Below are positions 945 to 1,993 of a DNA stretch of 30,396 bases, one piece after another (within the stretch, counting starts at the first letter, position 1; every line of letters starts with the position of its first letter). A program made the translations under genes and the position numbers. The notes under the pieces are model-generated. The model did no database searches and had not been told where the DNA came from. It saw only the letters and a program-made list of their open reading frames with translations. Origin of the DNA: a virus; the IMG/VR virus record IMGVR_UViG_3300046453_000057, positions 1 through 30,396 of that record; one strand, written 5' to 3'.

Positions 945-1993
945 CTATCGGCCTAGTGCATCATCTATCGCTTTTATGCCCGCCATAATCGGGTAAATCT
1001 GCAAAGGCACTACGGCGTTACCAAGTGCCTTCAGCCGGCCAACCCGGTTCTTTACTCCCATTGCTACTCTTGGCGGCTCCCAATTATACTGTTCTGCTCC
1101 TTGTCCGGCAGGCCATCTATGTCCGTCCAGTCTTCTGGAAACCCCATCAAGCACTCTACCCAATTCGGATTTAATTGCCCTTCCTGTCTCATCCGGACTG
1201 CGTCTCCTAAAGTGTTTGTTTCTGGGTTCCGACCGGTTGCAGCTAATGCCTCTGGTGTCCTCGCGCCTTTCCATTCCCTTGTCGTTGGAGTCGGCCACAT
1301 CTTCACCTGATCGTTCAGATTCTGACTCCATCCCTGTTCCTGCTTCCTGCTGGCTCTCGGTCCATTCGGATTGTCTCCACTCCGATAATCCCTTGCTTGC
1401 GGAGTTGCCCATAAACCTTTCTTCCAATTCGCTATGTCCGTTCGAAGGCTCTTTCTCTGTCCGCCCCCGTGACTCCCCACTGCATCCGCTGCGCTCGGTG
1501 TACCCCACAATGAAGACCCGATCTCTTCTGTGCGGGGCGCCGACGGACGCAGCTGGAATAATAACCGGTTGCGCGGTGTACCCGATGTCTCCCAAGTCAG
1601 AAAGCACATCGTCGAGGCCCAAAGTGACGTGTCCAGCAACATTTTCGCCAACAAACCAACGGGGTCTGATCTCTTCCAGTAGGCGCTTAACCTCTGGCCA
1701 GAGGTGGCGGACGGCAACCGGCCTTGTCGCTTCCCGGCATTACTGAAAGGCTGGCAAGGATATCCTCCGGAAATAATGTCAATTGTTCGCCCATCTCTAA
1801 TGATTCCATCTGCCTCCAACCTCGCTTTCGTCAGTGTCTTCACATCATCGTATATAGGGATGCCAGGGAAGTTCTTTTGCAATACCTTCACTGGGTATGG
1901 CTCTCTTTCACAAAAGGCTACTGTTTTCATGCCGGCCCAGTGAGCTGCTAAATCAATGCCGCCGATGCCGCTGAACAGGCTTAAGTGATTCAT
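945..1993 (-). CDS. DNA cytosine-5 methyltransferase, disrupted by a frame change near 1715
   Basis: C5-cytosine methyltransferase that would methylate phage DNA. From ATG 1993 the first frame carries motif I (FSGIGG, residues 7-12) and motif IV with the catalytic Cys80 (PCQPFS). The second half lies in the frame reached by stepping back one base near 1725-1705: HLWPEVKRLLEEIRPRW, motif VI (GENV), motif VIII (HRRDRVF) and motif X (LKALGNAVVP), ending at 945. A single missing base, for example one G in GGCCGG, would restore one full-length enzyme of about 349 residues. Alternatively the ribosome shifts -1 here, though I see no classic slippery heptamer. The target-recognition region between motifs VIII and X has the VGYT/MGNS/VADS-type segments usual in phage enzymes. 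The start overlaps the upstream stop as ATGA. Confidence 0.75.
1064..1993 (-). CDS. Zero-frame product over the methyltransferase gene, with W-x-T-P repeats
   Basis: Without a frame change, translation from 1993 gives 309 residues. About 91 are the methyltransferase N-terminus; the rest is a second protein-like frame over the same DNA. This tail has three W[GAP]TP modules (LWGTPSAADAVG, LWATPQARDYRSG, MWPTPTTREWKG) and a late block NPNWVECLMGFPEDWTD. I recall the same pattern in separately annotated phage proteins next to cytosine methyltransferases. The two frames are locked together: a codon run for V-A-D-S read one base later gives W-P-T-P. Whether the tail is made as a protein is unknown; it could also be the remains of a gene that overprinted the methyltransferase. 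Confidence 0.45.
   Translation of the reverse strand: MNHLSLFSGIGGIDLAAHWAGMKTVAFCEREPYPVKVLQKNFPGIPIYDDVKTLTKARLEADGIIRDGRTIDIISGGYPCQPFSNAGKRQGRLPSATSGQRLSAYWKRSDPVGLLAKMLLDTSLWASTMCFLTWETSGTPRNRLLFQLRPSAPRTEEIGSSLWGTPSAADAVGSHGGGQRKSLRTDIANWKKGLWATPQARDYRSGDNPNGPRASRKQEQGWSQNLNDQVKMWPTPTTREWKGARTPEALAATGRNPETNTLGDAVRMRQEGQLNPNWVECLMGFPEDWTDIDGLPDKEQNSIIGSRQE

Follow-up and report, generated by a model that had tools for sequence, protein, structure and literature searches.

One locus in a viral DNA record (IMG/VR IMGVR_UViG_3300046453_000057, positions 1 to 30,396; this whole stretch of 30,396 nt is here referred to as the window) raises the question of whether the same DNA can serve two proteins at once and, if so, what the second one does beside a C5 DNA methyltransferase (MTase). 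The MTase frame lies on the minus strand, starts at 1993 with motifs I and IV, and resumes in a different frame down to 945 with motifs VI, VIII and X. Its N-terminal part, in the frame of 1993 (1721–1993; PF00145, 1.2e-19), contains motif I, LFSGIGGIDL (1949–1978), and motif IV, GGYPCQPFS (1742–1768). The C-terminal part (945–1710, with the stop at 945; PF00145, 3.9e-16, and phrog_363, 3e-41) contains motif VI, GENV (1638–1649), motif VIII, GAPHRRDRVFIV (1506–1541), and motif X, RLKALGNAVVP (1005–1037), and both halves match PHROG_363. The same DNA on the same strand, read one base on, gives a protein with W-x-T-P modules (here called W), whose stop is at 1064–1066. In translation, the MTase frame shows VGYT, MGNS and VADS segments together with motifs VI, VIII and X, and the W frame shows LWGTP, LWATP and MWPTP modules and then NPNWVECLMGFP.

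The main part of W (1064–1710) matches phrog_1008 at 1.4e-40 and carries three cassettes. Cassette 1 (LWGTP SAADAVGSHGGG, 1415–1510) is the same as in relatives L002, L015, L016 and L017, cassette 2 (LWATP QARDYRSGDN, 1301–1414) is common to L005 and L016, and cassette 3 (MWPTP TTREWKGARTPE, 1178–1300) is common to L005. The cassettes are followed by a C-terminal element resembling motif IX (QLNPNWVECLMGFPEDWTD, 1121–1177); in the relatives with split or single-chain layouts described below, this element immediately precedes motif X. The N-terminus of W (MESLEMGEQLTLFPEDILASLSVMPGSDKA, 1711–1809) begins at an ATG at 1809 behind GGAGG and is cut off by a short patch, with a stop at 1687. The presence of two protein-like frames on one DNA, as noted in the preliminary description, is confirmed beyond chance by the PHROG_1008 match and by the family-wide tests below. 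The true start of W, at 1809, is upstream of the span given there (1064–1720).

Relatives of the locus are found well beyond the window. In the phages of Paenibacillus larvae the MTase ORF is intact, with 345 aa, and encloses the entire W ORF; some of their records list W as a second methyltransferase, others as 'g55 internal gene'. The pair is also present in phages of lactobacilli, Salmonella, Edwardsiella, Vibrio, Klebsiella and Pseudomonas, in one cyanophage and one mycobacteriophage, and in bacterial genomes of several phyla, with overlaps of 440 to more than 1000 nt. We also searched for W as an independent gene and found none apart from the MTase: at all of the 80 genome loci examined W is nested in the MTase, except at the split locus L227.

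Long gene overlaps on one strand are rare in bacteria and phages, and they are hard to prove. We analyzed 128 non-redundant phage C5-MTase genes, picked by the MTase N-terminus alone, which is upstream of the core of W, and compared them with a null model in which synonymous codons were shuffled within each gene; internal controls came from the +2 frame, from the N-terminal part outside the overlap and from the region that follows W. Among the 72 non-redundant genes of the proteobacterial-type eiAU group, 57 are free of +1 stops across the overlap, where the synonymous shuffles predict 5.1, and the mean number of +1 stops is 0.28 compared with 3.09 in the shuffled genes and 10.4 in the +2 frame. 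The median length of the longest open +1 stretch is 309 codons in one group and 215 in the other (shuffled, 139 and 89; +2 frame, 50 and 47). Fourfold degenerate third positions are saturated before W, with an identity of 0.30 against 0.27 expected by chance; in the firmicute group the identity rises to 0.62–0.72 at the W start, codon 61, and returns to 0.31 past the W stop. For the other group the rise comes at codons 76–82.

The substitution rates point in the same direction. At MTase codon positions 1, 2 and 3 of the firmicute group they are.19/.14/.59 in the N-terminus,.49/.24/.18 in the cassettes and.23/.13/.56 after W, and in motifs V–VIII they indicate constraint from both frames. Between the window and its nearest relative, L005, the values are.35/.22/.10 in the cassettes and.15/.15/.46 after W. 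Position 1 is the fastest and position 3 slow in the cassettes, therefore W is the constrained frame there, and from motif VIII to the last codons of W the substitutions track the codons of W and not those of the MTase. As for the start of W, the position of the ATG is common to 32 of 55 firmicute-group genes, and some in-frame start is preceded by a Shine-Dalgarno-like sequence in 55 of 56; the position of the in-frame ATG is not conserved in the proteobacterial group. Since the open W frame holds an in-frame ATG in 49 of 56 genes of the firmicute group and in 71 of 72 of the proteobacterial group, programmed frameshifting as a means of making W was set aside as unneeded.

One might suppose that the W frame is open merely through chance, base composition or the codon bias of the MTase, with no second protein at all. 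Indeed, GC-rich genes carry few stops in their +1 frame, and a few GC-rich loci are individually non-significant in the stop test. Yet neither the shuffles nor the +2 frame, N-terminal and post-W controls reproduce the open W frame or the third-position signal, the cassette substitutions track W, and the split loci have an MTase frame full of stops with W still open. We regard this explanation as practically negligible. Both frames of the same DNA are under purifying selection, that is, they form an overprinted gene pair, and the nested arrangement is selectively kept in hundreds of phages. The earlier suggestion that selection maintains the overlap in the wider family is therefore borne out by stop counts, open stretches, third positions and substitution rates alike; many stops in W, or a constraint no greater than that of the MTase, were looked for in the homologues and were not found.

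Why, then, do the frames change places in the window? At 1711–1720 (minus strand) it has a patch of 10 nt, CGGTTGCCGT, for the 11 nt AAGGAAGATGA of relatives L005 and L002, a net change of −1 nt. The patch moves alpha (the MTase) from frame 0 to frame 2 and W from frame 1 to frame 0, and both proteins are broken. The MTase N-terminus is joined to W in the window because the patch shifts each into the frame of the other. The patch sequence had no second copy in the viral contigs searched, a set from which records very near the window may be missing. It is either a mutation or an assembly error, and because it breaks both genes with its net −1 nt, the window copy of the pair is either inactive or mis-assembled. 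The zero-frame join emphasized in the preliminary description is present in the window, but the two nested ORFs of the relatives and the −1 nt patch do not support it as a meaningful arrangement. That the join could itself be the functional product, by programmed frameshifting or natural fusion, appears very improbable: the frame that starts at 1993 does run through W without a stop as far as 1064, but this requires the net −1 nt patch, which is seen in no relative examined, the relatives keep a conserved W start with its ribosome-binding site, and the fusion would be without motifs VI, VIII and X. In a P. larvae prophage contig (IMGVR_UViG_2814123203_000008; L019/L155) the two nested frames are both broken by a different frameshift, which lies among the cassettes, and the sister prophages in that genome (L012–L014) are intact.

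We further focused on what each protein contains. The PF00145 alignment of the intact relatives stops at profile position 228 of 324; motif X is present in their alpha proteins and no motif IX was seen in them. In the alpha model the large domain has a pLDDT above 90, residues 169–204 and 229–239 fall below 50, and the entire stretch from motif VIII to motif X is low, its roughly 70 residues being unfolded in the model. Foldseek matches this model to M.HhaI across only about 171 columns. Alpha is modelled with high confidence as an M.HhaI-like catalytic large domain, and no recognition domain is predicted in it.

W itself had no match of weight in Pfam or NCBIfam, and its profiles, alone or with motif X, had no match among PDB sequences; the idea that W belongs to a solved or named family was therefore dropped. 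Modelled by itself with AlphaFold, W gave a poor result (pLDDT 60, pTM 0.26), and a fold search with this model returned meaningless matches only. Its C-terminal end reads LNPxWVExLMGFPxGW and resembles motif IX of M.HhaI, LHPRECARVMGYPDSY. When this motif was compared with 42 W proteins, the LMGFP element gave the best window in 40 of them, and with the motif reversed it did so in 1. The median p is 0.015, which is statistically weak; the same test with motif IX of M.MpeI or of a second MTase was not significant. A second MTase carried by L313 was dropped as a yardstick, as it gave only 5 near-copies. Pfam did not detect motif IX in the split and single chains. The element may thus be regarded as a candidate motif IX, an assignment drawn more from position than from sequence statistics.

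The natural rearrangements of the locus are the strongest evidence on the identity of W. In the split loci (L311/L227 from Brevibacillus borstelensis, L313, L314, L315, L317, L318 and L333) alpha ends directly past motif VIII and its frame has 6–23 stops over the cassettes; the W ORF is open throughout and runs in frame into motif X. Locus L316 carries motifs I–VIII, one cassette, the LMGFP element and motif X in a single ORF. In the alpha tree, where the row of L313 is misplaced, its second MTase having been picked, the split form is scattered beside nested relatives, with about four changes. These loci show that the place of the recognition domain and motif IX of a normal C5-MTase can be taken by the W cassettes and the LMGFP element. 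Mixed layouts also occur in mycobacteriophage Tweety (L361, 1201–2313) and Gordonia phage Baddon (L362, 1189–2259), in which a W-like N-terminus and a cassette are in the +1 frame and a motif-IX-like element (FPEWMMGWPAGW and FVEWMMGLPRGW, respectively) is in the MTase frame shortly before motif X.

W could still be a genuine protein of unrelated function, for example an inhibitor or an anti-defence protein, overprinted on the MTase gene. The selection tests say that W matters and not what it does, and W has no detectable structural relative. But W was not found away from an MTase at the loci examined, alpha has neither a recognition domain nor motif IX, and in the rearranged loci the cassettes and the LMGFP element sit exactly between motifs VIII and X, where those parts belong. 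On balance, an unrelated function seems unlikely.

The cassettes were also analyzed as separate units, with 439 of them cut from 176 loci (near-copies included), 1 to 6 per locus. As a result, we obtained 1387 cassette pairs (near-copies included) that are at least 75% identical despite alpha N-termini less than 65% identical. Conversely, the cassette sets differ in 120 pairs whose alpha N-termini are nearly identical. Such exchange would be expected of interchangeable recognition domains like those of the multispecific Bacillus phage enzymes.

Taken together, we consider it probable (roughly 0.83) that the locus encodes a heterodimeric C5-MTase from two nested genes on the same strand, in which W is the beta subunit carrying the cassettes and motif IX, with a probable anti-restriction role. 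Alpha, the longer frame, would supply the catalytic large domain with motifs I–VIII and X, and the part that separates VIII from X would serve only as a linker, for which no fold is predicted. Beta, the W frame, at +1 and with its own start inside alpha, would bring 1–6 exchangeable cassettes acting as target-recognition domains, and its C-terminal motif-IX element would dock them onto alpha. Alpha and beta together would methylate the phage DNA, with one specificity per cassette, and the methylation probably lets this DNA escape host restriction. We infer the binding of beta to alpha, the reading of DNA by the cassettes and the anti-restriction role alike. The preliminary description was right that a real overlapping protein accompanies the MTase, but it missed that W most probably supplies the recognition half which this enzyme would otherwise lack.

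Two-chain and multispecific C5-MTases are known from other systems. The target of M.EcoHK31I is YGGCCR and that of M.AquI is CYCGRG, and M.EaeI is probably like M.EcoHK31I; Lee et al. reportedly described in 1995 that the small gene of M.EcoHK31I lies inside the large one in another frame. Similarly, the phage alpha has motifs I–VIII and X without IX, and the second gene is nested in another frame. According to PMC3404938, M.EcoHK31I consists of two polypeptides, the large one with motifs I–VIII and X and the small one with motif IX, and the recognition domain is placed in the large subunit and not in the small one. In the phage alpha, by contrast, no fold is predicted for the stretch from VIII to X; moreover, the phage system is phage-borne, its nested subunit has 1–6 exchangeable cassettes, and the two are likened by layout and not by sequence kinship. 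PMC3404938 also gives M.AquI as split, with motifs I–VIII on one chain and the recognition region and motifs IX–X on the other. The split phage loci share this layout, but they still start the second chain inside the first gene, and the main nested form, including the close relatives of the window, keeps motif X in alpha. The multispecific Bacillus phage C5-MTases (SPR, H2, kin) carry several tandem recognition domains for several targets (PMC8936443). The phage family resembles them in its tandem exchangeable cassettes, with multiple specificity putative here; they are single chains, whereas its cassettes are in the nested frame. M.BatI, an orphan prophage C5-MTase, combines a recognition region of unusual shortness with a toxicity that does not stem from methylation (PMC8936443). 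M.EcoHK31I is the closest known enzyme, and we treat the phage family as a variant of this rare design and not as a member of a named enzyme type, because the likeness is one of layout and the recognition region differs in place from that of M.EcoHK31I.

The nested ORF has been annotated before. SHELLY_56, the 'g55 internal gene' of Fernvirus Shelly, is the same ORF in the Paenibacillus larvae phages, and PHROG_1008, the family matched by W of the window, is named 'DNA methyltransferase'; neither annotation gives it a role as part of a two-subunit enzyme, and our literature search found no paper describing the nested phage MTase/W family. It is rather probable, with somewhat less assurance than the reading of the locus itself, that this is a very widespread multispecific phage MTase family, in which the recognition cassettes are nested at +1 in the catalytic gene and the recognition half shifts among nested, split and single-chain states. 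If so, one stretch of DNA would at once encode a loose linker in one subunit and, in the other, the recognition half. The overlap itself is conserved among phages as different as those of Paenibacillus, Lactobacillus, proteobacteria, cyanobacteria and mycobacteria, and the tests of it have clean internal controls. The proposed reading would give a function to a frame that is usually missed or labelled 'hypothetical' or 'methyltransferase', and would account for the apparent absence of a recognition domain in these orphan phage methylases. Cloning the annotated protein alone, for example as a codon-optimised alpha, would destroy its partner, and the cassettes would offer a ready test of modular sequence recognition.

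Several loci deserve mention in their own right. In Salmonella phage W5_chr3 (L042, 2195–3124) and cyanophage Cy-LDV1 (L046, 2672–3226) the W frame is annotated and the MTase frame is not, with the labels 'Mte8-like protein' and 'methyltransferase', a recurrent annotation error. In mycobacteriophage OfUltron (L363, 1201–1960) a frameshift past the ENV motif has led to the annotation of two short 'DNA methylase' genes in place of one MTase. The nested MTase locus of Klebsiella aerogenes plasmid LR134256.1 (L210, 2136–3182) is broken into several frames and is apparently a pseudogene or low-quality sequence. The MTase gene of an uncultured Muribaculaceae (L228, 1286–2557) has an HNH-endonuclease-like stretch inserted just upstream of motif IV and then a stop (GGFP*SCQPFS), possibly an intron or another mobile insert. 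Finally, the chromosome of an uncultured Roseovarius (OX638333.1) contains five nested MTase loci with identical scores at five places (L248–L252), as if it carried five near-identical prophages.
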